DNA of 64,000 nucleotides from a virus: IMG/VR virus record IMGVR_UViG_3300030104_004245, positions 57,759 through 121,758 of that record, one strand, 5' to 3'. Below are positions 3,086-52,700 of the stretch, in pieces (the first letter of the stretch is position 1; each line of letters starts with the position of its first letter). The notes under the pieces are model-generated. The model did no database searches, was not told where the DNA came from, and saw only the letters and a list, made by a program, of their open reading frames with translations. Made by a program: the position numbers and the translations under genes.

Positions 3086-3091
3086 ATATTA

Positions 3092-3099: not shown

Positions 3100-3121
3100 T
3101 GTTTTTAAAATATTATTAATT

Positions 3122-3559
3122 ATGAGTATAGGAAAAAATATGATTATTGTAAATGCTCCAGATTTTCAGAGCATGGAAAAATCTTTTAAGTTAGTCCCTA
3201 TAACAATGGACTGCCCTTATGTTGAATGTTTATTTTCAGCAAAAGATAAAGTTTTAGCTGTTATAAGTAAGACTATGAAACAAACTTATCACATGGTCCC
3301 TAAGTTAGATGACAATGGAGATCAAGTACCTGTTAAAGGTAAAAGGCCTGGAAACAAGCCACCATACAAAGAAGAGAGGAGATTAGTAGATACATTTTCA
3401 GAATTCTACTTAATGACTCCTGAAGAAATTAATGGATTTATTGAATCATTTGCAGTTAATGCAAAAGAATTTGATTATAAGTCTTTTACACAACCAAAAG
3501 AAGACAAAGAAAAAATCATTCAAATGAAAAAACCTGATTTAGTAACTAAACCAGAATAA
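3122..3559 (+). CDS. Conserved-looking phage protein of unknown function (145 aa), single-gene unit
   Basis: I recall similar short proteins from Bacteroidota phages but cannot name a family. The N-terminal two thirds is mixed alpha/beta, with the phrases VNAPDF, VPITMDCPYVE and YHMVPKLDDNG. The middle is a basic, Pro/Gly-rich stretch (KGKRPGNKPPYKEER) and the tail is charged. The gene has its own candidate promoter upstream and a strong terminator downstream (3625-3659), so it may be transcribed alone and highly in the early phase. It lies between the nuclease operon and the DNA polymerase. A DNA-binding or replication-accessory role is possible but not shown. Confidence 0.75.
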   Translation: MSIGKNMIIVNAPDFQSMEKSFKLVPITMDCPYVECLFSAKDKVLAVISKTMKQTYHMVPKLDDNGDQVPVKGKRPGNKPPYKEERRLVDTFSEFYLMTPEEINGFIESFAVNAKEFDYKSFTQPKEDKEKIIQMKKPDLVTKPE

Positions 3560-3594
3560 GTTTGGTCAACTATAATGACTTTGTTTTGAGTGGG

Positions 3595-3659
3595 CCTTAG
3601 ATCAGCCTTAATGATCTTTTCTAAGGGAGCTGGTTTGTGTGACAGCTCCCTTTTTTTTT
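3595..3659 (+). terminator. Rho-independent terminator preceded by a second hairpin
   Basis: GGGAGCTG (3625-3632) pairs perfectly with CAGCTCCC (3643-3650) across a 10-base loop and is followed by nine T (3651-3659). Immediately upstream, CCTTAG plus ATCA (3595-3604) can pair with TGAT plus CTAAGG (3612-3626) with a TTTT bulge. The two stems share only bases 3625-3626, so they probably stack rather than compete. The polymerase gene starts 13 bases after the T-run. Confidence 0.85.
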
Positions 3660-3671
3660 AAATTAAATTAT

Positions 3672-33500: not shown

Positions 33501-33809
33501 TCCTAAATATCTCAACCTCATACTTTTATCTGTACTATTAACAGTAAAGTTATTGGTACCACCTATTCTTCTTATAAGCTTTTGTCTTCTTAAGTTAGAA
33601 TATAATGCGTCAATATATTTTTGTTTCCTTATAGAAAATAATATTCTTTTTTCTTCTAAATATTCTTCAACCTGATCAATAGATGGGTATATTTCTACAT
33701 TGTTTTGATTTTGCCAATCTTCAATTATAGAGTCAACTAATATAGGAGAACCATATTTGTTTTCTAAATTTTTATAAGCTTCCGTATTTCTATTAAAACA
33801 TTTTGCCAT
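27597..33809 (-). CDS. Giant cargo protein with PD-(D/E)XK-like domain (2070 aa)
   Basis: A very large protein, likely packaged in the virion and ejected with the DNA, as proposed for crAss-like giant proteins. Residues about 255-390 resemble the zincin module of the 5292-aa neighbour, but the HExxH site is replaced by E-E-V-L-H261-P-F, so it is probably inactive. Residues 470-760 carry a RecB/Cas4-like nuclease core: G-I-A-G-A-S-D643 then I-K-D657-L-K659 and Q-Q-H-S-M-Q-L-F-M-Y. Within its N-terminal part a LysM-like stretch occurs (about 495-525, V-K-P-G-E-T-F-K-S-I-L-K-K-Y). The rest is long charged helices, and the C-terminal ~250 residues hold hydrophobic helices. Its ATG overlaps the stop of the RNA polymerase gene (TAATG at 33809). 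Confidence 0.75.
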   Translation of the reverse strand: MAKCFNRNTEAYKNLENKYGSPILVDSIIEDWQNQNNVEIYPSIDQVEEYLEEKRILFSIRKQKYIDALYSNLRRQKLIRRIGGTNNFTVNSTDKSMRLRYLGNQKYEFKGSAKVADNHRIRILKQLQLWGVNTNAAIFMKNGKTFIFKLDPSQIRNKDVISTEPSKDKTYIKSVLNFLQKKFPLTDTEFVTEEQAKKYYNKLDAKQRPDAPYEYTAQGTVKKKKKIDWRRVNSFYDPKANKIMLIGNKITDSSAVEEVLHPFVDALAKDNPKLYDNLLEEAKLSFPILHQQIKDTYNEDKGFRVEDQNRELVTQALSVNFLKDYKEIEDSDKPRKKWDQLGFKFMKWFANLIKEWFKYLTGTDLKIKVSDINYNTTLSDIAKVLNTTNIGFTFKKQEATIPAEERIKFSLEPKLAAALKKYKERATPEQKRTLDVISQISEAHQEMIENYNVSGEKGEGGIITLDEETHTYNNLLDPKQNFKSVTTIIKGTMKVKHNVKPGETFKSILKKYKIKEDRINEIKALNDSLADIENLKNSTGSRLKDLYLPDERFTINRDIGNEFDTLMGQISLYRSFNDIEKDMNDGKLDFKYLSEKGTLYAAYQSMSQLVANLRGMSEKNNRSIVVPQVILGDTRAGIAGASDIFIIKPDGSVSIKDLKVSKHDVVGNKKRKKIYETEGFAVGPESKFWKTGNYRERTKKEKAQGVKYDPKIHQFELTPKQQHSMQLFMYGRLAANLGLKVNFDEMETIHIHADVFNIDKETQEFSGKFGLPLQRLHRDSENRDLLDKILILNPNAKLVQQAEEFAKQDKTDDSIMSEDFVDGIETPLDDADSSIIYDAIYNVLMVHQGTLIKKRDVLQKERDKVKLLEGDQEIVHDIQTSVNLINHIVNEQEEYMEEGYQEILNKTSATIERFYEYVENPDNWNKEEYIRKVLNYPSIIESYAGLSKIADGISDKESIYSKLAPKTKDAIFRLINNINKLNGTRRIVDGVEQVSTGAISEAIDNYVSEKIVEWSIKPELAPLRKEKQKDFAPLWEEYKTLLPGEKQEFIDGLNETQKEWLDSRIEMDNIMKYGTDIGAISASVRSLAVTDDTLVQIMEKMQKAKKQELLDRINIDSQDIGGAAGNLLRVRKRLGLPTDAKSMYSYMLRFDKDGKFKNQYVQKIGEEYEELQESLRQKMFDAEGNLMEYKLYEDGRELTDEEVKYNIKLKQIKKEFGAFFNAEEITDEGVSEQGEYHHYTQDFIDARNQVQEIIVTGKYKRWEKKDGVTEDDYRSFRNKYMSKKTIYRMIPDQFGNPSGTVVKDTDWFVKNDYREANDFVKSTGESLLSKRYEDIINPDMSNELKQAELTFYLTYVQYWDKYLEMLPADDRSQMTGRLPLILDTFTQQLAQSDTGAKAKLFAKLNPKKAWDQFINSTSSSKHVYTNENGDFIDSLPIYYTGSPRQEKYLEGLNKRLKELEQQWNSGNLKGKDGRTLNSKEQKAEYNKERKRIKEQIIKLQMSPSRDEISLDLADSLLKFGTMAQNYDTMYEIEHTMKAFIDTISRREYREPDGNIYTRIGGKVVDAFRKQGTAREPRMIARVKKWMHMVYYDNDQQTRGYMDKLVGELISKSSLVYVGWNTWGNINNYMVGRLNNFVETFGRGQGHYFRRESYYKAERLFNERLLPDLLHRLGGRTAFNDLTGAGRLTRYDKHQAISKYEALVDLFRMMDAKSDLREQGPDSANKKSWLRRASEWGFAVQDGMEYNVQTKVGMAILDSWMVKDKETGETMSMLDAFNWNTKDGEASLDGNKFSVIDYRTGEEREWNDQTRYEIRNYIRETNKQIHGNYAHEDRMVIQSHWLGQLAAQFHKWVVPAYDARFRKSYFDENLGWMEGRYISLWNYMKYMYQIKNHIEKNSLKKDYFNGPEGQVRMKNMWKIAGEAAVISLSLLTRDILSKVWEDDDDKSKTRKRLENLILYQLHRQQREFVQFVPVFGWKEAWNLVKSPFASSRWVAEITEAVGSTVMTPAAYTIAWVKGDTVKFNTNSTYVYQRGARKGEWKVKKNWYDALPILYTIERFKSYDTVRNFWVK

Positions 33810-36800
33810 TACTTACATTTCTTTTTTATTTCTTTCATAAAATCTTCTAAATCCATTTCGTTATATATCTCTATATATCTATCAAATCCTTCTTTAAGTT
33901 CTTTTAAAGTAACTTTTTTAATCCCTAAGTTTCCTTTTATGTTTTCTATATTTTCTGTAGATAAGTTTTTTAATTGCTCATTAAAAAAGTCTGTTATCAT
34001 TTTATCATCTACAATATCTTCTTCTTCATAAAATATATCTTCTGCATCATCATCATAATCCATTTCATCTCCAACCTCATCCATGCTTAAACTTTGTACA
34101 GACTCATCTACATTTTCAGGATCTGTTGTTGTTAAATCATTTTCTGATGAATCGTTTGCATCATCCCATGTAGCTTCATCATCTGCTTCATCCATAGATA
34201 GCCTGTTTGCTTTATCTTCTAAGGATTCAAACTCATTCATTGTACCATCTTTCTTAAGACTGTCAATATATTTTTTAATTTCTTCATATGCAGGAAGCTG
34301 ACCATCTAATACATGTGAAGTAGAAAATGTTGATGTACTTCCCACCGGTTTATATTCTATATATTTAAACCTTGTTCCAAATATATTCCCTCCTCTTTTT
34401 TTAATTTCTTCATTATCTATATCATAAATATTATTCATGTTTATACCTAAAGGTGTATCAATTTCTGCTAAGATAAAAGTTTTTCTTCTATACTCTCCTG
34501 ATTCAGTATATTTTTTTGGTATATCTAATTTAAAAACTATAGGAGCTCCTATAAGTTTAACACTTTGAGTGCCTTTTGATCCTGGAGCAATAACATTTGT
34601 ACTACTAAATATTGGTTTATTAGAAGATTGTGCTTTAAGTATTTTTTCAATATTATCATTTATCCTTTCTTGGTTTTCTATTTCTAAACGTTTTAATTTT
34701 TTATACTGATCTTTTTTAGGAACATATCCTATACTATCATTTCCTTTTATATTTTTCAAAATGTTTATTTCTAATTCAGCCAATTTATATTCATCTTCAG
34801 ATGCGTTTTGATAATTGTTTTTAGCATCATAAACTATTGGTTCTTGCTCACCTAAGAATTGTCTTCCTGCTTTTTCAGTTTCTCTTTGTCTAGTTTCTAT
34901 ATCCCATCCAAATGCATATATTAATTTGTTTCTTAAATACGCATAAGTTTTTGGACTTTGTTCTTTTACAGACTTTAACCTATTAACATAAGGACCTTCA
35001 GTATAAAATACAACATCTTTACCATACCTTACTATATCATTTATTATTGTATCAAAAAAATCTTTGTTATCATTTAATGAATCATCTGACCAATACCTAC
35101 CTTTTTCAAACATTACTGGAATTTGAATAATATCTCCTGTAAGTTTATCTCCAAGCACTTTTTCTAATCTATGTTCTCCAGTACTTACACCTTCAAATAC
35201 ATGAAGTTTTTTACCAGTATTTATTGAAGGTAATATATTATCCCAATTACCTTTACCTTTTACAACTTCAATGTTTTCATCTTTTAGTTGACTTGGTACA
35301 ACATTCTCATAACTTACAAAGTATTCTTTTCTTTCTGTTTGACTATTATACTTTGATCCAATTAAAGGTTTAATATATTTTTGAGTATTTATATGTTTAT
35401 AAAATCCAACAGTTAAATCTTCAATCAAAGCTTTTTTAGTCATCCCTTTACCAAATACATTTTCAAATGCTGCATCTGTTTGTGCTGTTGATTTAAATAA
35501 CTGATGTACAGTTTCTAAAACTCCTGTGTTTGCATCTATAATATCTCTATATAATATTGGTAAAATAGCTTGCATGAATGAACCTCTAGAAAATTGCATT
35601 CCGTCTTTTACAATAGAGTAGTTTACAAGAGCTTGTGCATCTTGCATTGTGTGAGGATCTTCAAACAATAATAATAAATCTCTTTGCATATCTTGAAGGT
35701 AATCATCATGTACTTCTGCAAATGAATTAAATTCAAGTAAATCTAATCCTGTCTTGTTAGATCTGTTAGATCTTGTTTTTACAAATAAACCATCAATAAA
35801 TGTATTCTTTTTATTATTTTCATTTAAGTATTTTGTAATTTTATCATATGCTTCAATGGCTTTATAACCACCTACTTGATCATATATTAATCCATTATTT
35901 AAAGATGCTTTAACCATAGCACCATTAGTTTGTTGTGTATCTAAATAATTTTTATAAGCTTTAATCATTAGATAACTAACTATATCTTTACTATTCTTAT
36001 CAATAAACTCTTCTTTATCATAAACATATAATTGTGAGTTTATTTTATTTTGAATATCTTTAAATGTATCTGTAAATGCAAGATGTAATGCAGGTAAAAC
36101 ATTGTCATTTATATCATTAAATATATCCCAATACATGTGATACATATTAGAAAAACCTTCTTTAGATTTGTATTTAAATATAGGTCTAACATCAAACGGA
36201 ATCTTATGTTTGCTCATTTCTTTATCATTCATTTCAACACCCAAATACTCTGCAGCTTCTGTAAATTTATTTATATCAGCTTGATTTGTACCAGTACCTG
36301 CTGTTAATGAAAGCATTGTTGATAAGTTTCTTATTGCTTCAGCAAATTCATCTGCAATCATCCACTGATTTAGTATAGCTAATTCTCTACGTATTAAAGC
36401 TTCTGCATTTTCTTTTTCTGTTATATCAGAAAGTTCATATAGATTAAGATCTATCTGTTCTTGTAGGTTTGATAATAATACACTAGTATTTTCCATTTCA
36501 TTTGTTCTTGCTTTCTTTAAAGCTTTTTTTCTTTTTTCTGAAGCGTTTTCAGGCATATTAGCATTTAATAAAGATTTTATTCTTTCTTCAACTAATTTTG
36601 TAGTTCCTGGGTCATAAAAACTAGCCTTATCTGTATAACCTGCTCTATATGCTACTCTAATGCTTGGTTGTTGTACCATTAATAATGATGTGTCAATATC
36701 AACACCCATAGCAATTAAAGTTCCAACAAGTCCTAATGCCTTCTTGTTTAGGTTATGTTTATGAGCTAATCTATCTTTTGCATTATCTACAATAACACTT

Positions 36801-39800
36801 ACTAATGCTGAAACTAAATATTGAGTTCTATATCCTGTTTTATCAATCTTACCTGTATCAGGATTTATTGAATATCTATTGTTAAACACTGCTCCTTTAA
36901 ATTTATAATTATTAAAGTTTAATGGAGATTGATTTTTATGAACAGAAATATTAAACTTACCTAAAGTATTAAAGCTAATATTACTTAATGCTATTGCTCC
37001 AATAGAATTTATTGCAATATGATTAGCATCCCATGATAATATTTTTCCTAATATATCATTAATATCTAAACCTTCTTCTTTTACAATTTCTTTTATTGAT
37101 GGAAAAGCATTTGAAATTTTTTCCCAAGCTATGTCAAAAGGTGTGTTAACAGCAGGTTCATAAGCAATTGGAACAGTTCTTCCTTCTTGTACTTCTGTTA
37201 TTCCTTTATTTCCCAGTAATGCATATTTTAAATCTAATATTTTATTATCTAATGCAGCCTTATAAGGTTCTGGAGTATTATCTATTTGACCTATAGATTC
37301 TTTTCTATTTTTTTTCCATTCTTTATATTCTTTGAAGTTTTTAGGTAAATTTAAAATCTCAAGAGATCCTTGTATCATAGAATCATCTTCCATATATTTT
37401 AATATTTCTTCCCTTGTATAATTTTCATCTGGAATAATAACATGTTCATAGTAATCTTCAAAAGCTTTTTCTTCTCTATTATACCAAAAACCTTTTGCAT
37501 TAGCATATTCTCTTTTAGATCTTTCTTCATTAAAATCTTCTAAGTCAAATCTTTTTATATATTGTTTAGCTCTAGGAGACCATTGTTTAGTAGCAGCCCA
37601 AACAAACCACATTTTTTCTAGCTCTCCTGAAGTATATACAGGCTTAACTTCTTCTTCTTTCTGAGCCATTTTATTAGACTTCCATGTTTGTATAGCATAA
37701 TGCATGTCATGCTTTTTATTTTTAGTATTACCAAACATGTATCTCATATAATCATAATACTTATCTTTTTCTTTTGTAGCATCACCATATCTATGAAAAC
37801 CTAGTTCATCATAATAGAAATCTGACATTTGTGCATAAATTTTATCAATATCAAAGTCAGATCCTGATATCTCTATTAACTCATATGCTGTCATTATAGT
37901 TGAACTATACATTGGTGGTAAGAAATCTACAATTTTTATATTAGCTGCAGAGTGTTTATCTTGTGTAGGAATACGTATAGCAAATGCTTTTGAAAATACT
38001 GATGGTAAAGGGTCTTCAGGTTTAATATTAATAGCTGAAGAATGATGAGCAGCCATCATTGATTCCATATATTTTCTATCTAATTTTTTACCTTTCTCAT
38101 CATACTCTTCTATATTAGCTCTAAGTCTATCTAAAACTATTTCACCTGGACTTACTTGATAATCATTAGGAAGCATTGATACATTGGTCATATCTTTTAA
38201 TGCTGGAGCTGTTCCCTCATCAAACTTTTTATCCCATTCATCCATTCTCATTATTTTAGCTTTTCCAAGTATAGCTATTCCATCTTTATCTATAGAATTT
38301 TTATCAAACACTCTAATGATTCTACCTTCATCTGGCATAAGAGCTGCAGCAACACCAGGTTGTCTTTCTGCTGTAACACCTTTTGTAAAAAAGTTTAAAG
38401 TAAACTTTAGAAAATCACCCATTGCTTCTGGGTTATTAAGATTAAATTTAGGATTTCCTTGCTCATCAACGTCAAACATTTCTAGCATATGGGATTTAGC
38501 TTGACTTGCTGCTAAAGATATTCTAGCATATTTTATAAATGCTGTTAACTTTGGTGTAAGTTGATCAGCGTGTTTACTTTTTTCTATTTCATTAACTACT
38601 TGAGAAAAAGTTAAATTCTTTTTACCTAGATACCCAGCCAATATTCTATTAGCTGTAGTTTTTTGATATGCTCCTCTTATGTCTCCAACTTTATAAGCTA
38701 TAGGATCTTCTGATCCAACCCAAACTTTTACATCATCAGATTGCTCAGAATCAATTAAAGCTTTTATTTGTCTTGGGTCTACAATTTCTGTTTTACCTCC
38801 TGGATTACGTACTTGTAAACCTAACCAACTAGCATCTAATTCTGTATATTGATCTTCATTAAGTTCTACATTATCAAATACATTTTTAACATCTAGTAGT
38901 TTTGGTTTAATAGTTTTTAATGCTGATCTTGGAACAACCATTGCAACTGCATCTGGATACTTAGCTTCTTGTGCTTCTAATTTTTCTAACAGATTATGAA
39001 GTCTTACCATTTGAGGTTTAGCTACCCAACTTTTATTTTTCTTATCCCATTTAGATGTAAGTTGTCTACTTAATATAAACGAAGCTGTTTTAATCATTAT
39101 TCCATCAGAACCTCTATAAACATACTTCTTAGCATTAATCATTGCTCCTAAATGTTTTAATCCTTGTTTTTTAGTTACAGTTCCTAAAAATTCTGTTAAG
39201 TTTATATCTTCACCTTTTCTTACTTTCTCCATCATTTTCTTTACAACCGGTGTTCTATATCCCATTGCATACCATGTTGCCTCAAAAGCTTTTGGAGTCA
39301 TCCATGTACCAGCATCACCTCTTTCTGCTGATTGCTCTTCTATCTTACCTTCTTTAGTTAGCTTTTGATCAACTATATATTTTTTTGTATACATCTCATC
39401 ATTCCAAGCAAACATGTGAACTTTTTTAACTGGAGCATTTACACCTTGATCTATTGTTGCATTTTTATCTGTAAATTCTGCACCTGCATTTTCAAAACCT
39501 GCAACTTTAGATTTACCTCTTTTAATAGGATCTTTAATAGGGTCTCCATATAACCTTTCTTGTCTTTGTTCTTCAAGAGTTCTATTTAAAGCTATACCCA
39601 TTAATCTTTCAGAAAAAACTATTTGTCTATAGTTATATTGCGGATTGTCATTAAGATTTAATTTAGACATGGCTAAATCTAAACCTTTATTGTTTTGTTC
39701 TTTTCCGTGATTTGTAAGATTATCTTTAAGTCTTGCATTGATTCTATCAAGCATGTTATTTTCAAGAAGATATGAGTATAAATCTTCATATCCTGATTCT

Positions 39801-42800
39801 AAAGATTCTTCTATAACTACATCTAATGTTCTTCCAAGTTCTTTTTTAATTTGTGCCTTTGCCTCTTTAAAAGATTTTTTATTCTTTGCTGCTTCTATTA
39901 ATATTTCTTCTGCAGATTTTGCAGGCACTTCTTCAAGAAGTGTTTCTTCTTCTACAACATCAAAAGATACAAACTCACCTGTAGGTAGTTCAACCCATTC
40001 TTTTTCAGTATCTTTTGCAAGCTCAAATGTATATATATATTTATTTATTTCTTCATTAAAGAAGAAGTCTCCATATTGTTTTCTTTGTGCATATGGTATA
40101 TAACCATATATAGTATCTGTTTTATCACCTTTTCTTTTTAACCAAGAAGTATTCTTTTTTTCTACTTTATCTTTAGTAACAAACTGATTTCCTAAATCTT
40201 TTATAAATTTTTCTTTTCCGTATTGTATTATATTCTTTTTAACAACACCAACTACAAATTTTTTATTATCTAATTCTACTATTTTTTTCTCTCCTAGTTT
40301 TATTCCTATTTTTTCATAAGCTTTAATATCTCTTAAAATTATTTTTTGGCTTCCAGAAAGTATTCTTTCTTTATCAGCCGTAGATAATATAGGAGCTTTT
40401 TTAGCAGATATATCTTCTTTTGCTACAATAGACTTTCTTAATAATTCCTTTACATCAAATATTTTAAATGCATTTCCATTTGGAGTATCATTATAACCTG
40501 CTTCATCACCTGCTTTATCAGGTTGCCACATTCCGTTTGAAAAATGAGCATCAAAACTTTCCCTTAAAGAATTATAACTATCAAGTATTAATTGTTCAGC
40601 AAAATCTTTTGCTTTCTTAGTCATAACTACATCACCATCATCATTTATTTCAACAGACTTTAAAACAGGAGCTGGTTGAAAATCAACAGTATTTGCTGAC
40701 TCAGGAACATTAAGCATATAAGGAACCTCAGCATAAGTATTAGATTTATTATTTTTATCTTGATAAGGTATTAAAGTAAGATTACCACTTTTAGAATTAA
40801 AGTTCCATAGGTATTTAGAAAATAATATACCTGCTATTTCAGCTTTAGGTAAAGATCCAAACTTATAATTTTCTACAGTATCTCCAGAAATCAATTCATT
40901 TTCTTTACTTAAATGTGTTTCTCCTAATGATACACCTCCCATTCTAACAATTCTATTTCTGTTAGATTGTGTCATATGTTGGTATTCCTCCATAGCAAAA
41001 AGAGGATTATTTGCATTAATAGTAAATTGTTTTAAGTTATCTATATATGTTTGGCTATTTTGTTTAGCTATTTGACGTAAATGATAACTTCCAATTTGAT
41101 GTCTCCAAACTCTATCTCCATTTGCATTAACATAAGATGATAACGCAACTTCAGGATCTAAATATGAATTAGATTCTGCTATCTCTAACAATCTTCCAGC
41201 AGCACCATCAAAATTTGTTTCTATAACTTTTTGTTCTTCATCAAGAATAACTTCATTATTAAATAAGTTTTCATGTTTTCCGTCTATGTTTCTTTGTAAT
41301 ATATCCCAAATTATTTTCCAAGTATCTTTTAAAACAGGTTGATGGTCTTTTGCTTGTTGACTTAAAACTAAAATCTTTTGTATAGGCGTCTTCTTTGCTA
41401 AACCAGATGAAATCCAATATTGAAGTGTAATAGGTGAAAGTTTAATACCTATAGTGTCATACATTCTTTGAGAAATATCAAGAGTTTTCTTTTCTAAAAC
41501 AGATTGTGTAAAGCTTTTTTGATTATACATAGCTTGAAGGTCTTCAAATATTGCTTCAGCTTCATCATATCTTAATAGTCTGTAATTTACATCAACATTT
41601 TGTCTATATTTTTCTGCCCATTTATTTACTTGATCTATTTTTTTATCAACAGCTGTTGGATCAAAAAATTCTACCATTCCTGTAGAAGGACTTCTTAAAG
41701 CGTTTCTAACTTCAAAAGAATAAGTTTGAAGAGGTTTAACTATAGTATAGTACCATGCAGGTCTAGATAACATAGCATTGCTTACTTCAAAATCTTCATT
41801 TGCTAATTCATCTGCATTTACACCTATATCATTAAAGAATCTAGAAACAAAAGCTCTAATGTCTGGATTAGCTCTACTTTGAATATATAAATTTCTTAAC
41901 ATTGATTTGTCATCTTGAACTCCAACTAATGCATTTAATATATAATTATAAACAGCAATATGATCTACAGATTTTCTAAGTCTTTCACCGGTAGGTAAAT
42001 ATTCATTACCAAATCTATCTTTAACAGGTACAGTTGTAGAAGAAATGTATTGTCTTATTTCTTCTCTTTGATGTACATATCCACCATATTCATCAAATGA
42101 CTTACCATATTCATCAGTTGTTATTCCACCTTCTGCTTCTTTTAAGCTTCCTTCAGTATTAATAGGGTCATTAAGTTCATCATCCATTCTAGCTATTCTT
42201 TCATCTTCTGCCTCTATCATATCACTCAAAGCTTTTTGAATATCAACCAGTCCATTATCTCTTAAGCCATTATATATAGATGTAAGTTCTGGCTCTATTT
42301 TTTCAAATTTTTCTGCAGGTAATCTTTTATATCTATTATCATCAGGATTAAAGTTTTCTATACCTTTAGCAATTGCTTCATTTTTTAATGTATCATAATC
42401 AACAGGTGCTTCTGCATTTTGAACAGCTTCATTATATATACTATGAATGGTTGACATTAAAATTCTTGTATCATGTGATCCTAGAATTTTATCTTGAATC
42501 ATTTGTTTTACTTTAGTTTCACCATTTTCAAAATAAGGTATCTCAAATTTAGCACTATCATATGCAATTCTATTAGGAGCTATTATTGTTGTTCCTACAC
42601 CATTTTCTAATATATGTCTTGTGTGTGGGTTGTTTGCTATTCTTGTTGTAGAATATTTACCCATATCAATATCTCTAAATAAGATATCTACTTTATTTCC
42701 TCTAATATAGTCTATTATATTTTTAATAAGGTCTGCTAAAAATTCAAAGAAAGATCTTATAACTCCTTTTGTATATTTATCTTTTCTATTTTCAGAAAAC

Positions 42801-45800
42801 TTATCAAACATTTGAGCAAGTGTTTCTTCATATAATTCTTTTTTCAATTCCTCAGTAGTCATTTTATAATACTTAGGAGATGAATTTTTCAAACTTTCTA
42901 ATGCTTCTTTTACAGAATTAACAGTTTTATAATTACCTTTTGCATCTATTACTTGAATCCCTTCTTTATTTCTTATTTTAGAATTAATTATTTTTTTAGC
43001 TTCATTGTAATAAGAAGTTTGTTCAGCTTCTGGTAACAACGCTCTAAATACAATATGAAATGGTTCATGACGTTTTTGAGGTGATTCAGGTGCTATAAGT
43101 ATTTTTCCAGGAACATCTTTAGAAAGCATTTCAAAACTCATTTGCATAAGTCCTGCTGTATATCCTGAGCCAATCATATTATTTTGCAATGTATTCCAGG
43201 ATACTGTTTCTACTGTTGCTTGAGGAAGAACTCTTTTCATGTAATCAACAAAAGACTTAACATCTTCTATATCATTCCATGTAAAATTTTTACCAATAAA
43301 ATTAGGAGTAGATGTATCAGTTGGATTGTTTATATCCATCTTTGCTTGATCTAATCTCTTTTTAAAATCTTTTATTTTATTTGCTATAACAGGATTTCTT
43401 TTTTCTCTTATAAGACTTCCGTTAGCTTTTATATTTTCATCAGGTGTAAAATCTTGTTTAGATTTATTAAATGTTTTTTCCCATTTAGAATAAACTTTAT
43501 CTGCTACTTCTTTTAAATATGTTTTATATTCTTGCTCAATTGCTTCATATCTTTTTAAAGGTTCTGGATTAGTAACTCTAAATGATCTATCACCTTCAAC
43601 TTCTAAAACAAGTGTATTAACATCTTCTTTTCTTGCATTAAATATTGATGTTTCATGTGGTTCTAATTTTATTCCATCAACTATTTTTATAGCAATACCT
43701 TTTAATTGTTTATCTGTTATTGTTGTAAAATTAGGATCTTCTATAAATGCTTCAGCTGCATCATCTTGTGAAGTAATTTCTGCTTCTTCCTCTATACCTT
43801 CATCCATAGAAATACTTTCAGCTCTTTTTGATATATCATCATCTAAAGCAACTGCATTATCAATTATAGAATCTATATTTTCTTTTTCAATTGTTTCTTG
43901 AGAGCTTTCTTCAAAAGTAATTACTAACTTTTGATTTTTAATTACTTCAGGACTAGCTCCTACTGAAAGACTTTCTAAATCACTATCTCCTTCTTCAGGA
44001 TCTAAATTTAATACAGTTGGTAAATGATTTCTAAAATTTTCTATTCCAAGATGTGATCCAAAATCTTCCCAGCTTTTATTTTCTTTTATAGATGCTACTC
44101 TTTTTAAATTATTAGCTTGATCTAATCTTGTATTAAATAAAGCTAATGCATTTTCTGCAAAGTTTCCTTCTTTCTGTTTTAAAGTGTTTATATCTCCACG
44201 AGATAAAATTGTTTTGTAACCTATTTCAGGACGCAACCTATCTTTAAATTTCATTAATAATTGCCCATCATTAGTAACTTGAAGATCAATTAAACTACCT
44301 GGAACATTAGCAATATAAAAATCATCACTAAACTGATCATTCCATTCTGTATTATATGCTTTACTTTTTATTTGATTTTCTACTACGTTTTCTTCTAATG
44401 TTTTGTCTGCTCTTTCTAATGCTTTATTAAATATATCATTTACTTCATTAGCAGTTTTAGGGCCACCTTTTAATTCTATGAAGATATATTTATTCATAGG
44501 TGTTTTAACAACTAAACTATATCTTCCTAATTTTCCAGGAACAACTCTTCCGTTTCTTTCTATAACGCTAAATCCTTTTTCTGCATTAGCTCTTAAAGAG
44601 TTTTCTATTTCTCCTCTTACTTCTCTAAATCTATCAAGTTGTTCAGAATTATAATTATGATGATAATCAATAGTAATACTACTATCTCCATCATTATCCC
44701 AATAAGTTTTCTTTTCTATTATAATATATTTGTTTTCATCTTCAAATTTATCTGCCCACTTAAATTCTAAACTTTGCCAATTGTATACTCCTTTTTTGAC
44801 ATCTTCTAATCTGTAAGTCAATTGCCCTGGTGATACAGATAAATTAAAACCTTTTAGTTTATCATCATTTACAGCTAATGTAATATTTTCTCCAGGCTTT
44901 AAGTCAAGATCTTGAAAAAGCTCGTTTACTTTTTCAGCTTGCTTATAATTGTCTATTACATCTAAATATGTTTTACCATCAGGAAGTATAAACATTTTAT
45001 CTACTAGTTCTGGAGTTAAGTCTTTAGCTTCTATAACTGAACCAGTATCATCAGGATTAGATAATAATTTTATAGAGTTTAATCCTTGTAATCTAGCAAC
45101 TGGTTTATTATTTGATAGTAAAGTAACTATGGTATCCGTATAACCTCTTCTTAAATAAGGGTTTTGTTCACTAGCTGTAAATCCAAAAGCTGCTCCTATT
45201 GTTTTATCTTCTTCATTTAACTTGGGTTTGTATATGTTTATTGTTAGATTGCTTACACCTTCTGGTGTTAATTTTCTAACCCATGTATCAAATAAATCTC
45301 TAGATTTTTTTTGAGCCTTTAAATATGCATCATTATTTGTAAATTTACTTTCAGTATAAAATGGATCTTGTTTTTTTAAATCTCTATGTCCTGGAAAAAA
45401 TCCATAGAATTGTATTGGTTCACTTATTCTTAATTTACTTACCTTTCTTTCAGGTTCATTAATTTTTACACTCTTTGGATTAAACTTTTTAAATCCTTGA
45501 TCTTTAAAGTCTTGTAAATCTTTAAACCAAACCCATTCACTTTCATTTTGTAAATCACTTGCTAAACCTGCTAAAAGACTTTTATTATCTTTAATAGTAG
45601 CTGGAGTTGATAATACTTGATAAGCTCTTCCTTTTTTATCATATATCTCTTCTCCTTTAGTTAATTCTAATACACCTCCTTTTTTTTCTTGTCCTTTTTG
45701 CATAGGTGTTGAAAGTAAAACTTCACGGTTAATGTGTCTTTGCAACGCTTGAGCAACATTTTTTGCTTCATTTGAATCAGTGTATTCTTTTTGTAACGGT

Positions 45801-48800
45801 AGAGTAGTATTACCTTTTTTAATAACATTTCTATAGTCATCATATATGTTTATAGGATTACCTGCTCCAACTTTTATCATAACTTTGTATCCTTCAAAAT
45901 CTTCTGTTACATCTCCTTGACGTATTTTTCCTGATATCTTATATATATAAACAGTTTTTTCAGGATCGTTTGTAGTAAGTGTGTCAAACAAATTTTGATT
46001 TTTAGAAAGCTTTCTTTCTTCTCCTATTTTTTTATTTGTTATTTCATTATAAGCAAGTTGATAATTTTTACCATTAGATTCTATATTCTTAATAACATCT
46101 TTTATTTCTACATTTTTATCTTTTATTTCTCCTAATAACCAACTATCAAAATCTACAGGTTTAATTTCTTGCCTAGATAACAAACTATCATATATTAATT
46201 TTAATCTATGTCTTGCTCTTAATATAGCACCACCTCTTCCATTTTTTATATACTCTTCTCTATTTTGTTTACCATTTCTACTTTTATATTGTTTCCAATT
46301 AGTTTCTATAACCTCTTGAGTTTTTAAATCTTTTTGATAAAAATTTTGTAAATCTTTTAAATCTTCAGAATATGTTTCTTTTTTAACTTCTTTTTGCTCA
46401 GGTACTTTTCTTTCTTCTTTAGCTTCTTCTTGTGCTTTTATTTTTCTCATATATCCAGAAAGCATGTTAGATAGAAATTCAAACTTAGCGTTATTTGTTT
46501 GCTCACCTATTTGACCATTCTCATCATACCAAGCAATATCTGTAGGCATAAGTGTATCTGATTCTAAAAATTCTAATATATCTGATTTTTCTCCGTATAT
46601 ATCTTTATCAGCTAAAAGTTTTATAAATGTAACTTTATCATTTTGATCAATAAATTTTCTTATTAGTTGTGGTGTTGCATTTTTAGACTCTTGCCATACA
46701 TTACGTAATACACCTGCTATTCTTTCTTGATAGCTTTTTAAGTATCCAGGATCTTCTAAAACTCTTGCTGCAGAATTAAATTTTTCTGCTCTTACTCTTA
46801 ACCAATTATTATCAATTATTGTTTCTATGAAGTTATCTATATTATCATAGTTTATAAAGTCATCATTATATCTAGCTAAATACTTTAAATAATTTTCTAT
46901 AGGTTGCTTAAGCAAATGTTTTTTACTTTTATCAAATACTCCTGAAAGTTTACCATCTTCTTCTTTTAACTGATTTTTATCATTATATAAAACATCTTTA
47001 ATCTTTGTTAAAAGTTTTAATCTTTGAAGTTTATCTTTTTGTGCAGCTATTAATTCTGGTGTATCTGCTTCTTGTTGAGCTTGTACTCCTAGTAAATTTA
47101 TCTCTTGATCTAAATCACTCCTTGTAAGTAAAGGTAATACATCTCTTTCAGTAGCTTTACTTACAGGTTTTTCATTTGCTGTAATATCTTTAATTGTAGA
47201 ATCTATTCTTTTAATTGCGTTTTCAAACATGTCTTCTACAAATAATTTCATTTGCATTGCATGTTCATGAGCCCAATACCTTTCTACTTCTCTTTCATAT
47301 TCTGGAGTTCCTTTTTTAAACTTTTTAGGATTATTTGGATTTGGATTTTTATCCTGTTGTTTTTCTATCTTTAACTTTAATCTATCTAAGTATTCAATAG
47401 TTTCACCTAATCTTTCTTTCATTTTTTCTGGAGAATCATCAACTTCTTTAAATGATGCTTTTAATTCATCATTATCCATTTTTTGAAGATCTTGTAACCA
47501 ACTTTTTACATCACCATACTTATTTAAAGTAATAGCATTAGAAAGACCTGTGTATAGCTTCATGTGTTTTTCATCATAAAAGATAAATTTATCTCCAGCC
47601 TTTTGTGCCATATATTGATTTTGATCATGCATCTGCATAGCAGTTGCTCTAATTCTACTAGGATCTAACATTACAAAAGGATCACTAGTTAAGTCATTTA
47701 ATGATTCTTCATACTTATCAACCATTTCATGAACCTTAGCTTCTCTTTTTTTCCATTCTTTTTTATTAGCAAATCTTTGGTATAGTTGAGGAGTTAACTC
47801 CATTGTAAGATATGAATAAGGTCTAACCAATCCCCCCATCATAAAACCAGACATAAATACATGAAACCCTTCTTTAGTCATCATGGAATTTATACCTTCT
47901 TTTACAGCTGCTTTCTTTAAGTTTTTTCTACCTTCTTCAAATGCAGATTCTGAAAAACCAGTATTCATTAATTGTGCTATATGAGAATTACTTTTATATA
48001 AGTCTGTGTAATATTTATGAACCCAATGTGATGTTGCTTCTTGAGATACTTCTTGTAAACCTTCAGCTATATTACCACTTAAAAATAAAAGACTTCTTCC
48101 AGTTAAATATCTTGCTCCACCTTTAAATCCCATTTTATAAGCTCTTCTAAGAAGATTATCTTTTGACCCTTCAAAGATTTGTTTTACTGAATTTTTATTT
48201 CTAAATATTCTATTAGCATAACTATCTAGCGTTTCATTCATCATTCTTCCTAAAGGCTTGAATCCTCTAAGAGCTCCATCTAATAATAATCTATTACTTG
48301 CTAGTATAATAGGAAAGTTATTCCAAGTTGTTCTAGCACCTGCTTGTAAAGCATGACTTGATATTTCTTCTAGTTCTGATTGTGAAGGTGCATCTCCTCC
48401 ATTCATTTGTTTTTGATAAGAGTAAAGATCGTTATATACATCATTTTCAACTAATGATCCTTCCATTTTAGATTCAGATAAAGCTAAATTTAAAGCTCTA
48501 AAATCTCTATACAAACTAGCAGCACCATATTTAAGTTTTGACATATTAGTTAAAGCTTTTGTAGTACCTCTAGTACTTGCAAAATGCTTCATAGCATATA
48601 AAGTTTCAGGAGCAAATGCAAAACCAAAAGCATTCAAACCTCCTTGTCCAGCTCTTCCAGCCATTCTTGTAGCACCTCTTCCCATAGCACCTATAGCTCT
48701 AATTGCTTTAAAGTTATTCATATTATTCATTAACTTTCTAGCAGGACCTGTTGTAGTTCTCCACGCTTTTCCTAATCTACTTAATTTTCTAACTTGATTT

Positions 48801-49687
48801 GCCTGAACTGCAGGAGCTGCTACTGAAGCATATCCACCAGTAAGACCTATTGCAGCTGCTAATGCTAGTTCTTCTAATACTATATTTGTTATAATGCCAA
48901 ATGTATATGCGCTATTTAAAGCTAAGTCATTCCAAAATTGTGTAGAACCACCTCTTTGTGATCCTCCAATTCTCATAGCTTCTCTCATGGCATACCCTCC
49001 TTCATAGTCTGATTCAGAAACTCTATTACCAAATATATCAGAATAAGATCTATAACTTGATGTCAATGCAGGACCAAACATATTTTTAAATTGCCCCCAA
49101 GATCTTGACCAATCATCCCAACCTGTAGAGTTTCTATTATAATAACTTTCATTATCTATAAAAGGATGAAACCCTAATTTATCATATGCTTCATGTAAAT
49201 AATATCTATCTAAATTAGTTTGTTTTACACCAAATGGTATAGGTTCTTGATATAAAGCTTCTTGGGGATCTAAAGGTTTCCTTATATTAGTTCTAGTATC
49301 TGCTGTTGCTAAAGCTTTTCTTTGACCTTCTGGTGTACTTAAATCAAAATCTTTAGTTGCATCTTCATAAGGATTAAAATTAGCAGTAGAATTTTCTGGA
49401 CGCTCTCCAAAGCTAAAACCGCCATCTACAGCAAAAGGTTGTATTGAACTAGCATTAAAATCAATCATTGTTTTTAATACTTGATTTGGTTCACCTGTTT
49501 GTTGTAGAGATATATCTATATCATTTTGAATTTGACCCCAATCTATATTAATTGATCCTCCAGGTGTATTATTAATTGGAGTAATAGGATTTTCAACTAA
49601 ATCTTCTGTACCAATTTGATCTACACTTTGATTAGGCATAGTTTCATTAGCTTCAGTAAGTGATGATATATTAAGTTCTTCAGCCAT
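33809..49687 (-). CDS. Giant virion RNA polymerase polyprotein-like protein (5292 aa)
   Basis: Contains the crAss-like, single-chain, two-barrel RNA polymerase, which is packaged in the virion and enters the host to transcribe early genes. The metal-binding loop is G-S-D3944-F-D-I-D3948-K-I-Y, preceded by A-I-R-I-P-T-Q (about 3903) and I-V-D-F-L-P-P. A zincin-type peptidase site H2207-E-P-F-H2211 lies in the middle, with a possible third ligand in the E-E-T-L-A-Q-M-F helix, then a hydrophobic helix pair. The N-terminal part has W-D-D-W-S-R-S-W-G-Q-F and a hydrophobic segment near 250-295, features I recall from crAss giant proteins. Acidic L-S-M-D-E-like phrases occur at M1961, M5165 and M5202. 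Several times longer than the 2180-aa phi14:2 enzyme, so it fuses functions usually on separate proteins. It may be cleaved into parts. Confidence 0.9.
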   Translation of the reverse strand: MAEELNISSLTEANETMPNQSVDQIGTEDLVENPITPINNTPGGSINIDWGQIQNDIDISLQQTGEPNQVLKTMIDFNASSIQPFAVDGGFSFGERPENSTANFNPYEDATKDFDLSTPEGQRKALATADTRTNIRKPLDPQEALYQEPIPFGVKQTNLDRYYLHEAYDKLGFHPFIDNESYYNRNSTGWDDWSRSWGQFKNMFGPALTSSYRSYSDIFGNRVSESDYEGGYAMREAMRIGGSQRGGSTQFWNDLALNSAYTFGIITNIVLEELALAAAIGLTGGYASVAAPAVQANQVRKLSRLGKAWRTTTGPARKLMNNMNNFKAIRAIGAMGRGATRMAGRAGQGGLNAFGFAFAPETLYAMKHFASTRGTTKALTNMSKLKYGAASLYRDFRALNLALSESKMEGSLVENDVYNDLYSYQKQMNGGDAPSQSELEEISSHALQAGARTTWNNFPIILASNRLLLDGALRGFKPLGRMMNETLDSYANRIFRNKNSVKQIFEGSKDNLLRRAYKMGFKGGARYLTGRSLLFLSGNIAEGLQEVSQEATSHWVHKYYTDLYKSNSHIAQLMNTGFSESAFEEGRKNLKKAAVKEGINSMMTKEGFHVFMSGFMMGGLVRPYSYLTMELTPQLYQRFANKKEWKKREAKVHEMVDKYEESLNDLTSDPFVMLDPSRIRATAMQMHDQNQYMAQKAGDKFIFYDEKHMKLYTGLSNAITLNKYGDVKSWLQDLQKMDNDELKASFKEVDDSPEKMKERLGETIEYLDRLKLKIEKQQDKNPNPNNPKKFKKGTPEYEREVERYWAHEHAMQMKLFVEDMFENAIKRIDSTIKDITANEKPVSKATERDVLPLLTRSDLDQEINLLGVQAQQEADTPELIAAQKDKLQRLKLLTKIKDVLYNDKNQLKEEDGKLSGVFDKSKKHLLKQPIENYLKYLARYNDDFINYDNIDNFIETIIDNNWLRVRAEKFNSAARVLEDPGYLKSYQERIAGVLRNVWQESKNATPQLIRKFIDQNDKVTFIKLLADKDIYGEKSDILEFLESDTLMPTDIAWYDENGQIGEQTNNAKFEFLSNMLSGYMRKIKAQEEAKEERKVPEQKEVKKETYSEDLKDLQNFYQKDLKTQEVIETNWKQYKSRNGKQNREEYIKNGRGGAILRARHRLKLIYDSLLSRQEIKPVDFDSWLLGEIKDKNVEIKDVIKNIESNGKNYQLAYNEITNKKIGEERKLSKNQNLFDTLTTNDPEKTVYIYKISGKIRQGDVTEDFEGYKVMIKVGAGNPINIYDDYRNVIKKGNTTLPLQKEYTDSNEAKNVAQALQRHINREVLLSTPMQKGQEKKGGVLELTKGEEIYDKKGRAYQVLSTPATIKDNKSLLAGLASDLQNESEWVWFKDLQDFKDQGFKKFNPKSVKINEPERKVSKLRISEPIQFYGFFPGHRDLKKQDPFYTESKFTNNDAYLKAQKKSRDLFDTWVRKLTPEGVSNLTINIYKPKLNEEDKTIGAAFGFTASEQNPYLRRGYTDTIVTLLSNNKPVARLQGLNSIKLLSNPDDTGSVIEAKDLTPELVDKMFILPDGKTYLDVIDNYKQAEKVNELFQDLDLKPGENITLAVNDDKLKGFNLSVSPGQLTYRLEDVKKGVYNWQSLEFKWADKFEDENKYIIIEKKTYWDNDGDSSITIDYHHNYNSEQLDRFREVRGEIENSLRANAEKGFSVIERNGRVVPGKLGRYSLVVKTPMNKYIFIELKGGPKTANEVNDIFNKALERADKTLEENVVENQIKSKAYNTEWNDQFSDDFYIANVPGSLIDLQVTNDGQLLMKFKDRLRPEIGYKTILSRGDINTLKQKEGNFAENALALFNTRLDQANNLKRVASIKENKSWEDFGSHLGIENFRNHLPTVLNLDPEEGDSDLESLSVGASPEVIKNQKLVITFEESSQETIEKENIDSIIDNAVALDDDISKRAESISMDEGIEEEAEITSQDDAAEAFIEDPNFTTITDKQLKGIAIKIVDGIKLEPHETSIFNARKEDVNTLVLEVEGDRSFRVTNPEPLKRYEAIEQEYKTYLKEVADKVYSKWEKTFNKSKQDFTPDENIKANGSLIREKRNPVIANKIKDFKKRLDQAKMDINNPTDTSTPNFIGKNFTWNDIEDVKSFVDYMKRVLPQATVETVSWNTLQNNMIGSGYTAGLMQMSFEMLSKDVPGKILIAPESPQKRHEPFHIVFRALLPEAEQTSYYNEAKKIINSKIRNKEGIQVIDAKGNYKTVNSVKEALESLKNSSPKYYKMTTEELKKELYEETLAQMFDKFSENRKDKYTKGVIRSFFEFLADLIKNIIDYIRGNKVDILFRDIDMGKYSTTRIANNPHTRHILENGVGTTIIAPNRIAYDSAKFEIPYFENGETKVKQMIQDKILGSHDTRILMSTIHSIYNEAVQNAEAPVDYDTLKNEAIAKGIENFNPDDNRYKRLPAEKFEKIEPELTSIYNGLRDNGLVDIQKALSDMIEAEDERIARMDDELNDPINTEGSLKEAEGGITTDEYGKSFDEYGGYVHQREEIRQYISSTTVPVKDRFGNEYLPTGERLRKSVDHIAVYNYILNALVGVQDDKSMLRNLYIQSRANPDIRAFVSRFFNDIGVNADELANEDFEVSNAMLSRPAWYYTIVKPLQTYSFEVRNALRSPSTGMVEFFDPTAVDKKIDQVNKWAEKYRQNVDVNYRLLRYDEAEAIFEDLQAMYNQKSFTQSVLEKKTLDISQRMYDTIGIKLSPITLQYWISSGLAKKTPIQKILVLSQQAKDHQPVLKDTWKIIWDILQRNIDGKHENLFNNEVILDEEQKVIETNFDGAAGRLLEIAESNSYLDPEVALSSYVNANGDRVWRHQIGSYHLRQIAKQNSQTYIDNLKQFTINANNPLFAMEEYQHMTQSNRNRIVRMGGVSLGETHLSKENELISGDTVENYKFGSLPKAEIAGILFSKYLWNFNSKSGNLTLIPYQDKNNKSNTYAEVPYMLNVPESANTVDFQPAPVLKSVEINDDGDVVMTKKAKDFAEQLILDSYNSLRESFDAHFSNGMWQPDKAGDEAGYNDTPNGNAFKIFDVKELLRKSIVAKEDISAKKAPILSTADKERILSGSQKIILRDIKAYEKIGIKLGEKKIVELDNKKFVVGVVKKNIIQYGKEKFIKDLGNQFVTKDKVEKKNTSWLKRKGDKTDTIYGYIPYAQRKQYGDFFFNEEINKYIYTFELAKDTEKEWVELPTGEFVSFDVVEEETLLEEVPAKSAEEILIEAAKNKKSFKEAKAQIKKELGRTLDVVIEESLESGYEDLYSYLLENNMLDRINARLKDNLTNHGKEQNNKGLDLAMSKLNLNDNPQYNYRQIVFSERLMGIALNRTLEEQRQERLYGDPIKDPIKRGKSKVAGFENAGAEFTDKNATIDQGVNAPVKKVHMFAWNDEMYTKKYIVDQKLTKEGKIEEQSAERGDAGTWMTPKAFEATWYAMGYRTPVVKKMMEKVRKGEDINLTEFLGTVTKKQGLKHLGAMINAKKYVYRGSDGIMIKTASFILSRQLTSKWDKKNKSWVAKPQMVRLHNLLEKLEAQEAKYPDAVAMVVPRSALKTIKPKLLDVKNVFDNVELNEDQYTELDASWLGLQVRNPGGKTEIVDPRQIKALIDSEQSDDVKVWVGSEDPIAYKVGDIRGAYQKTTANRILAGYLGKKNLTFSQVVNEIEKSKHADQLTPKLTAFIKYARISLAASQAKSHMLEMFDVDEQGNPKFNLNNPEAMGDFLKFTLNFFTKGVTAERQPGVAAALMPDEGRIIRVFDKNSIDKDGIAILGKAKIMRMDEWDKKFDEGTAPALKDMTNVSMLPNDYQVSPGEIVLDRLRANIEEYDEKGKKLDRKYMESMMAAHHSSAINIKPEDPLPSVFSKAFAIRIPTQDKHSAANIKIVDFLPPMYSSTIMTAYELIEISGSDFDIDKIYAQMSDFYYDELGFHRYGDATKEKDKYYDYMRYMFGNTKNKKHDMHYAIQTWKSNKMAQKEEEVKPVYTSGELEKMWFVWAATKQWSPRAKQYIKRFDLEDFNEERSKREYANAKGFWYNREEKAFEDYYEHVIIPDENYTREEILKYMEDDSMIQGSLEILNLPKNFKEYKEWKKNRKESIGQIDNTPEPYKAALDNKILDLKYALLGNKGITEVQEGRTVPIAYEPAVNTPFDIAWEKISNAFPSIKEIVKEEGLDINDILGKILSWDANHIAINSIGAIALSNISFNTLGKFNISVHKNQSPLNFNNYKFKGAVFNNRYSINPDTGKIDKTGYRTQYLVSALVSVIVDNAKDRLAHKHNLNKKALGLVGTLIAMGVDIDTSLLMVQQPSIRVAYRAGYTDKASFYDPGTTKLVEERIKSLLNANMPENASEKRKKALKKARTNEMENTSVLLSNLQEQIDLNLYELSDITEKENAEALIRRELAILNQWMIADEFAEAIRNLSTMLSLTAGTGTNQADINKFTEAAEYLGVEMNDKEMSKHKIPFDVRPIFKYKSKEGFSNMYHMYWDIFNDINDNVLPALHLAFTDTFKDIQNKINSQLYVYDKEEFIDKNSKDIVSYLMIKAYKNYLDTQQTNGAMVKASLNNGLIYDQVGGYKAIEAYDKITKYLNENNKKNTFIDGLFVKTRSNRSNKTGLDLLEFNSFAEVHDDYLQDMQRDLLLLFEDPHTMQDAQALVNYSIVKDGMQFSRGSFMQAILPILYRDIIDANTGVLETVHQLFKSTAQTDAAFENVFGKGMTKKALIEDLTVGFYKHINTQKYIKPLIGSKYNSQTERKEYFVSYENVVPSQLKDENIEVVKGKGNWDNILPSINTGKKLHVFEGVSTGEHRLEKVLGDKLTGDIIQIPVMFEKGRYWSDDSLNDNKDFFDTIINDIVRYGKDVVFYTEGPYVNRLKSVKEQSPKTYAYLRNKLIYAFGWDIETRQRETEKAGRQFLGEQEPIVYDAKNNYQNASEDEYKLAELEINILKNIKGNDSIGYVPKKDQYKKLKRLEIENQERINDNIEKILKAQSSNKPIFSSTNVIAPGSKGTQSVKLIGAPIVFKLDIPKKYTESGEYRRKTFILAEIDTPLGINMNNIYDIDNEEIKKRGGNIFGTRFKYIEYKPVGSTSTFSTSHVLDGQLPAYEEIKKYIDSLKKDGTMNEFESLEDKANRLSMDEADDEATWDDANDSSENDLTTTDPENVDESVQSLSMDEVGDEMDYDDDAEDIFYEEEDIVDDKMITDFFNEQLKNLSTENIENIKGNLGIKKVTLKELKEGFDRYIEIYNEMDLEDFMKEIKKKCK

Positions 49688-49700: not shown

Positions 49701-52700
49701 TTAATTTTGCACAGCACCACCCATAGATTTTTTATATTGATTTTTAGATTGTATTGTTGTATTTGCTATACCTGTTAATATTTCTAATCTATCAAATAAG
49801 TTATCTTGTAATTGTTTATTGCTTACACCAGCCATTTCAGTGTAATTATTAGAAAGAACTACATTACCGCTTTCTTCATCAAATCTATATGTTTGCATAT
49901 CTATCATAGTTCCATCTGGACTATTTCTGTAAGTAACTGTTCCACCATTTGGTATTGATGCTGTAAAATGTCCATAATGATTCATTATTGAATTGATGTA
50001 ATCTTGACCTTGATTAGAACTCTTTAAAGGATTATTATCTAAATCTTTTTCAACAAATATCATAATAGAATTTTTTTGCCAAAAATCACTATCTTGGTTT
50101 ACAGCACCTCCTTTAGGTGAAGCAGTGCTGTTATCTGCTGGTGTTACAGCTTTACTAATTAAATTATTAGCAACTTTATTTGTAAAGCTTAATTCATAAG
50201 CAGCATATTTATTTTCTGCATCTTGACCTCCTGCACCATCTGGTATATATTTTAATTGAAATTGTGCTCTTGCAGCATCAGAATTTGTTTTAGGATCATA
50301 TGCTAAAGTTTTTTTCCATGCCTCTAAAACATTTTCTGCTTCTGGATCACTTATAAATGTACCTAAGTCTTCTTCTTCATCAGTCATTTCATCTTCATCA
50401 AAACTATAAGACTGATCTCCAATTCTTGTAATATAATTATTAGGTATTTTTGTCACATCTAAAAGTGATGCTATATGAGGAACAGCCATTTTTGCTGATT
50501 GTTTTCCCTTTTTTAAGTCCCATGCATCATAGTCAAAGTTGTATACATAACCTGCTGTTGCACCAGTTCCTAATTGAGGTAAACCTGCTGTAAAAGAACG
50601 TACATCAAATGTTGGAAGTCCGCCACCCCAATTAGCATCAGGATCCATAGCTAATCTATTTTGAAAAAATCTTAAATCTTCATATACTTCTTTTGCATCT
50701 TTTCTAGCTTTTTCTTCATTAAAAACAATTTGCCCTCCACTACCTTCTCCATAGTTTGTAGGTGTACGAAATTCATAACCTTTAGAAGATCCTAAATCAA
50801 TTTTAGGAGATATAACTCCCCAATATGGATAATTTTTCTTTAAAGTTTTTGGGTTCATTTTATCCCTATCTTCTTTACTAGGTGCTATACTCTTATAATA
50901 GTTTACCCAGTTGTCTATATAAGATTGTTCATCAAAAGTAATAATATTTGCACTATTAAAGTTTTTACCTTCTTTTGAATCTTTTAGTCTTTTTGCAAGC
51001 ACTTGATCCCAAGTAACACGTTGACCACTATTTAAAAGTTCAAGTTCATGTTCATACATAGCTAAGGGCAACTTCCCATTTAAAGATGGAACTTTACCTG
51101 GTATAACATTAGAAAGGTTAAATTTAGTTTTATTAAGTTCTTCTGTAGCTGAATTTGTAATAGAAGTTAATCCTTCAACTTCTAATTGATTTTCAACCAT
51201 TTGTCTAGAAAAGGCAGGATTATCTGCACCATTTGCATTTTGCCAAACATAAGCATTTATTTGTCTGCCATTAAAATCAACAGGTTGCACTTGAAATTGA
51301 TTGCTACTTTCAAAAACACTTTGATATAATCTATCTAACTCATCACTATTTTCTGGCATGCTCATGTATTGCTTAAATGTAGCTAGATCTGTACTGACTT
51401 GTTCTTTTTCTAAATCATTAGCAGCAGATATAACTGATTCAGCCATAACTCCATCTAGATTTCCATAAATATTTTCAACACTTGAAACCAATGGGTTTTG
51501 ACGGCTGTATGTGATTTGACCAGGTTGACCTGTTAAATTATTATTTTGAGAAAATCCTGTATCTTTATTATTATAAGCATCTAAAATAGTTTTAATTTTA
51601 GCATCTGTTGTTTTGTTAGCTAGATCAGCAATTCCATCATTTTGTATTTTATCCCAATATACATTTTCAAACTTTTTCCTATCTTTACTCTCTTTAATAT
51701 TTTCCCAATCAATACCTGGATAATTGTATTGTGAAACTTGAGGATCTGCAAAAGGATTCCAAGGTTCTCCTCCTCCAATCTCTCCTTTTTTCATTGCTAG
51801 TATTTCATCTAACCGTGCTTTATGAGCTTGTTGTGCTAATTTATGACGGTGTTGCATAAGAAGCTTTTCTCTTTCATTAAATTTAACATCTGTCTTTTTA
51901 CCTATAGTAGCATAAAGACTTGAAGCATTTGAAATATCTCTAGCAATATTATCTACAGCAATTGCTTTATAAGCTAAACCTTCTAATTGTCTCATGTTTT
52001 CTACTGGTGATTTTAAATCTGTAACATTTTTAGACATGCTACGTTTTGTTTCTTCTAATAATTGCAATTGATCTAAAATTCCTGTATAGTATTGATACTC
52101 ACCAGTTCCTGGAACTATACCAGTTTTTTCCATATATGCTTGCCAATTTTGTGAAGTAGTTTCTAATCCCTTCATTTCACTGTCAAGTCTTACTATTTGT
52201 TGTACTTGATTATCAACTGACTGTCTTACTATATCTTGCAACCACCATTGTTTTGCTTTTTCTTCATTACCATATGTTTTAATGTTTTCTGGATTACTCC
52301 ACCAGTTTCTTCCTTCTACATATGCAGATGTGGCATAATAATCTTGTACTCTAGGATCTTGTAATAATGTTTGATTTAAATAATCTGCAGCTCTATTTAC
52401 AGTAATAGGTTTTAATTTACCATTTTCTTTTATAAGTCTGCCTTGACTATCTCTTTCATATCCTACAACATCTGCAGTTATAGCTGTACCATTTGTAGTA
52501 GTTATTTCTAAACCTTGATCTGTCATCTCCCAAGATGAAATATCTTTATTACCTGTCCATTCTTTTAACTTTTCTATACCTAAATCTATCATATTAACAT
52601 TAGGAACATACTTTGGAATAGGAACTGACATAGCTTGATCAGGAGTCATTTTAGAAAAGTCTTCTAAATGCCATTGTAATCTTTGCATTCCTTGATTCCA

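Follow-up and report, generated by a model that had tools for sequence, protein, structure and literature searches.

A giant gp47-like/RNA polymerase fusion protein of a divergent crAss-like phage and its conservation among relatives

Which functions can be combined in one phage protein of more than five thousand residues, and is so long a reading frame a genuine gene? These questions are raised by a locus in the 64,000-base stretch of DNA analyzed here (the window), which corresponds to bases 57759-121758 of an IMG/VR virus record of 121,758 bases. The giant gene accounts for 15,879 of these 64,000 bases (24.8%, the quarter of the window given in an earlier note on this DNA). No internal stop codon interrupts the minus-strand frame 33809-49687, no group I intron was found in the gene, and the frame is located at about 91.6-107.4 kb of the contig, away from the contig ends. 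Because dozens of homologs have equal length and architecture, the frame is far beyond what chance would produce. Searches of Pfam, PHROGs and, with the single sequence, PDB yielded nothing significant for the giant protein, and only profile comparisons were productive (Table 1). Two candidate matches, to a MerR regulator (phmmer, E 0.2) and, weakly, to a PRO-PRO endopeptidase (E 0.27), were dismissed as not significant.

Table 1. Features of the giant gene and of the genes that flank it (window coordinates)
Feature	Residues	Position	Strand	Basis or remark
Whole gene, giant fused virion RNA polymerase	5292 aa	33809..49687	-	ATG start, single open frame
phiCrAss001 gp47-like module	1-~2360	42608..49687	-	hhalign
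Conserved hydrophobic/amphipathic segment	264-282	48842..48898	-	
EGxxExxQ motif	542-549	48041..48064	-	common to several gp47-like modules
Zincin-type domain	2137-2330	42698..43279	-	homology, conserved site, model
HEPFH (HExxH site)	2207-2211	43055..43069	-	
E2287-E2288, candidate third metal ligand	2287-2288	42824..42829	-	invariant, 49/49
Junction of gp47-like and gp50-like halves	2330-2368	42584..42700	-	low AlphaFold2 confidence
gp50-like RNA polymerase half	~2369-5292	33812..42583	-	hhalign
Modelled polymerase core	3289-4480	36248..39823	-	AlphaFold2, Foldseek, profile
DFDID metal-binding catalytic loop	3944-3948	37844..37858	-	three Asp invariant
gp49-like RNAP-associated protein	2070 aa	27597..33809	-	start overlaps stop of giant gene
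Gene directly upstream of giant gene	1136 aa	49701..53111	-	cargo/ejection-gene position only

Sequence profiles and structural modelling identify the C-terminal half of the protein as a crAss-type virion RNA polymerase. Direct tblastn searches matched annotated phages over residues 3871-3957 alone (extending to 3985 for one relative), the targets being proteins annotated as 'putative RNA polymerase' in phiCrAss001 and its kin (about 40% identity, E 2e-8); outside this catalytic block, identity to annotated Crassvirales is low. When a query profile of 21 full-length relatives was compared using hhalign, residues ~2522-4726 aligned nearly end to end with the phiCrAss001 gp50 family (prob 100, E 4.5e-48), and the giant-protein profile also matched gp66 of Cellulophaga phage phi14:2 (E 1.4e-19). 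The catalytic block, RIPT..S..FLP..S.I..E..SGSDFDIDK.Y, aligns with eight Crassvirales polymerases, and the three aspartates of the DFDID loop, found at D3944-D3948 as the earlier note had indicated, are invariant in both of our alignments (A1 and A2). Among PDB entries, the phi14:2 polymerase (6VR4) was the sole convincing sequence match of the core profile, in two segments (E 2.8e-23). The AlphaFold2 model of the core (pLDDT 79, pTM 0.81) likewise retrieved 6VR4 as the top Foldseek match (E 7.4e-23, probability 1.00, TMq 0.54, 1230 columns) and as the only one below E 0.001; the next matches, to QDE-1 and to the non-virion RNA polymerases of phiKZ and AR9, were weak. Thus, the region around D3944 matches a two-barrel enzyme, as the earlier proposal of a crAss-type core had anticipated. 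The two double-psi barrels are both predicted from the long match to 6VR4 taken as a whole, not barrel by barrel, and the TM value of 0.54 indicates that peripheral domains differ or sit differently.

The N-terminal half, searched as a single sequence, matched no database entry. As a profile, it aligned with phiCrAss001 gp47 in two collinear segments, namely residues 437-741 with gp47 357-633 (prob 96.7, E 4.1e-10) and residues 2145-2356 with gp47 2101-2301 (prob 93.7, E 1.9e-7), the second of which carries the HExxH site. The same profile gave no match to phiCrAss001 gp45, gp46 and gp50, which served as negative controls, and nothing matched the middle of this half (about residues 1000-2100). 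For lack of gp45/gp46 homology, the idea that the phiCrAss001 channel protein forms part of this half was abandoned. By sequence comparison, then, the giant gene is a head-to-tail fusion of gp47-like and gp50-like parts with a gp49 homolog next to it, so that the other virion function to which the core had been proposed to be joined is a gp47-like module that carries a zincin-type site. An N-terminal hydrophobic segment had also been noted. Such a segment is present at residues 264-282 and is kept in most relatives, but with a Kyte-Doolittle mean of 1.72 and two conserved glutamates it is only moderately hydrophobic and is not to be taken for a proven transmembrane helix.

The peptidase-like HEPFH motif is where it had been reported and corresponds to HEAFH in gp47. 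HE.FH and the downstream EE are invariant in the 49 aligned relatives (H2207, E2208, H2211, E2287 and E2288), and a glutamate is the candidate third metal ligand. Immediately around the site, 48 of the 49 sequences have YHE[AG]FH and the window phage alone has RHEPFH in place of the near-invariant YHEAFH, so that the activity of the site may differ in this phage. In the AlphaFold2 model of the domain, the site helices are well defined (pLDDT 82-93; whole-model pTM 0.47). Foldseek searches with this model retrieved no zincin, and the assignment as a zincin-type, putative metallopeptidase domain therefore rests on motif and homology. The model falls below pLDDT 50 across most of residues 2330-2368 (model residues 251-289), after which the polymerase half follows.

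The genomic context points in the same direction. Residues 1499-2010 of the adjacent 2070 aa protein match phiCrAss001 gp49 (tblastn E 4e-20, blastp E 7e-26); for the 1136 aa protein encoded on the other side (49701..53111), no homology was detected. The best listed matches of the terminase large subunit (TerL) are crAss-like phages, with 24-27% identity across some 85% of its length; in PHROGs, phage head families are matched by the portal (E 1.4e-99) and by the major head protein (E 8.4e-26). Taken together, the crAss-like TerL and the matches to portal and head families assign the phage, on sequence grounds, to a divergent lineage of crAss-like phages (Crassvirales). Elsewhere in the window, a gene for a 1160 aa protein (13222-16704, minus strand) ends in a Por_Secre_tail type IX secretion C-terminal sorting domain (residues 1095-1158, E 7e-10), which suggests that this phage protein is exported by the own system of a Bacteroidota host; it adjoins a gene whose product has a signal-peptide-like N-terminus (12164-13222, minus strand). 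Two adjacent genes (18863-22477 and 22480-24585, both minus strand) encode large proteins with a common N-terminus, MPNISAGSS...TTNQYAKRKG, and are probably paralogous tail or fiber proteins. Three plus-strand genes (6549-7409, 25345-27204 and 5665-6552) encode a spore-photoproduct-lyase-like radical SAM protein (E 4e-26), pieces of a B12-dependent ribonucleotide reductase and a DUF932 protein.

Exact peptide patterns revealed no close relatives. An alignment-based scan of IMG/VR with the catalytic block recovered at least 545, of which 80 were kept; five of these loci are cut by a contig end upstream, leaving 75 testable. Zincin and polymerase motifs share one frame in 72 of the 75, and every one of the 20 full-length relatives has the fusion, with lengths of 4491-5705 aa (median 5003). 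Two exceptions, L034 and L059, have a short break in the frame (L034:8144-8246 and L059:9791-10091; no Rfam intron was found at the latter). The third, L016, is a close polymerase relative (52% identity in the core) with a different N-terminal half: in its gene (L016:3278-13144), the HExxH site is HEYQH at residue 1673, and apart from the short EGxxExxQ motif the N-terminal 1700 residues have no detectable relationship with the usual gp47-like half.

Among annotated Crassvirales, the zincin-polymerase fusion is found in cr55_1, cr4_1, cr273_1 and cr108_1. In Suoliviridae cr55_1 (YP_010110313.1, 4551 aa), an HExxH domain precedes a DFDxD polymerase in one CDS, and cr4_1 (YP_010112556.1, 4491 aa) and cr273_1 (YP_010113556.1, 5794 aa) have the same layout with TAG recoded; all their in-frame stops are TAG read as sense, whereas the window gene has no TAG recoding. 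As in the window, a gp49-like gene follows the fusion in these three phages, whose giant proteins are about 37-40% identical to the window protein only around the catalytic block. The fused gene of cr108_1 contains a group I intron within the DFDID codons (L011:20442-20760; Rfam E 1.3e-20), and its RefSeq annotation consists of two separate proteins. The halves are encoded by separate genes in phiCrAss001, cr111_1 and phi14:2. PhiCrAss001 has the same three components (gp47, gp50 and gp49), but its gp47 and gp50 genes lie on opposite strands. With phi14:2 (gp66, g067 and g065), the window phage shares the polymerase fold, DFDID and the one-strand gene order; gp66 is unfused and has the 2180 residues quoted in the earlier note (DFDID at 1361), and g067 has no HExxH. 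In p-crAssphage (BK010471) and cr3_1, the polymerase is instead joined to the gp49-like partner. According to the annotation of the former, KP06_gp44 and gp45 comprise a giant fused polymerase of 4070 aa and a separate zincin-bearing RNAP-associated protein (1957 aa), the latter described as 'fused to zincin protease'.

In the polymerase tree, the window gene and its environmental relatives form one long branch (100/100), a clade separate from Steigviridae, Intestiviridae and Suoliviridae. On this tree, the fused state must have changed three times, which implies recurrent fusion or fission; the long branches of several sequences call for caution here. Giant fused RNA polymerases are thus common in Crassvirales, and the fusion is neither an assembly error nor unusual. 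The rarity implied by the earlier comparison, which was with phi14:2 only, was overstated, given that polymerases of up to ~6000 aa were named a hallmark of crAss-like phages in a 2023 review (PMC10136315), and virion RNA polymerases joined to large proteins of unknown function are described in crAss-like and N4-like phages (PMC10770324). Outside the crAss-like phages, the resemblance is one of layout only: the N4 virion RNA polymerase (vRNAP; 3500 aa) is a giant virion enzyme of the T7-like single-subunit type whose N-terminal domain has putative membrane-spanning helices at 224-278 and which also carries an HExxH domain (PMC12633501), and the P23-45 vRNAP (5002 aa) is fused to the tape measure protein (PMC10770324).

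Given the gp50 and 6VR4 matches, the homology to gp47, the gp49-like neighbor, the crAss-like TerL and the conserved fusion, we consider it very likely that the giant gene of this divergent crAss-like phage encodes a virion-packaged, two-barrel, DNA-dependent RNA polymerase in one chain with a virion protein whose phiCrAss001 counterpart, gp47, is encoded separately. Counting against this reading are the low identity to annotated Crassvirales beyond the catalytic block, the long branch of the clade, the TM value of 0.54 and the unmatched middle of the N-terminal half. In phiCrAss001, gp47, gp49 and gp50 have been detected in the virion by mass spectrometry and are regarded as cargo, with extrusion in a partly unfolded state expected (PMC10172136). 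Virion presence has been reported for the polymerases of both phi14:2 and phiCrAss001, and early-gene transcription for that of phi14:2 (PMC7886860, PMC10172136). By analogy with these relatives, the giant chain would be made late in infection, packaged in the head as cargo and extruded through the tail partly unfolded, probably N-terminus first. The N-terminal half would engage the envelope during passage; once in the cytoplasm, the chain would refold along with the gp49-like protein, and the C-terminal polymerase half would then transcribe the early phage genes with the same partner.

The chain might instead be a polyprotein, cleaved around residues 2330-2370, perhaps by the zincin-type domain that it carries, into gp47-like and gp50-like proteins, either in the virion or after ejection. 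The zincin-type site, with its invariant HExxH and EE, adjoins the low-confidence junction, which is where phiCrAss001, cr111_1 and phi14:2 split their genes, and L016, with its different N-terminal half, has an HExxH of its own beside the polymerase. Nevertheless, we regard such processing as unlikely: gp47 of phiCrAss001 retains the zincin motif despite being a protein separate from the polymerase, g067 of phi14:2 lacks HExxH, no conserved cleavage motif was found, the fold search retrieved no zincin, and the N4 vRNAP, which also has an HExxH domain, shows no evidence of degradation (PMC12633501). It appears quite improbable to us that a large crAss-like clade delivers its polymerase in the form of a polyprotein that processes itself, with the N-terminal half building or entering an envelope channel and the zincin-type domain at the junction cutting to free the polymerase into the cytoplasm.

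A polymerase produced inside the cell and absent from the virion, like the non-virion enzymes of phiKZ-like jumbo phages, would be consistent with the weak fold similarity to the phiKZ and AR9 enzymes; however, the virion polymerase 6VR4 is the best match by far, the gene lies on the same strand as gp49 and other large genes, and its fusion partner is homologous to gp47, which phiCrAss001 carries in its virion, all of which renders this explanation very hard to credit. Although the two halves are neighboring but distinct genes in several Crassvirales, an assembly error or frameshift artifact joining neighbors, raised beforehand as a possible refutation, is refuted with near certainty because the fusion is conserved, in independent contigs from many samples as well as in annotated Suoliviridae.

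The gene is real, and the giant fused protein is a further example of a known crAss-like polymerase type; by itself, the window gene adds little that is new, fused polymerases of such size being a stated hallmark of the group. The value of the very likely one-chain virion polymerase lies in its clade, where dozens of naturally occurring proteins unite a polymerase with a protease-like domain and a candidate delivery module in a single chain, with split relatives alongside. The co-occurrence of one-chain and split forms makes these phages a good system for studying how giant proteins pass through a tail and whether the protease-like domain acts.
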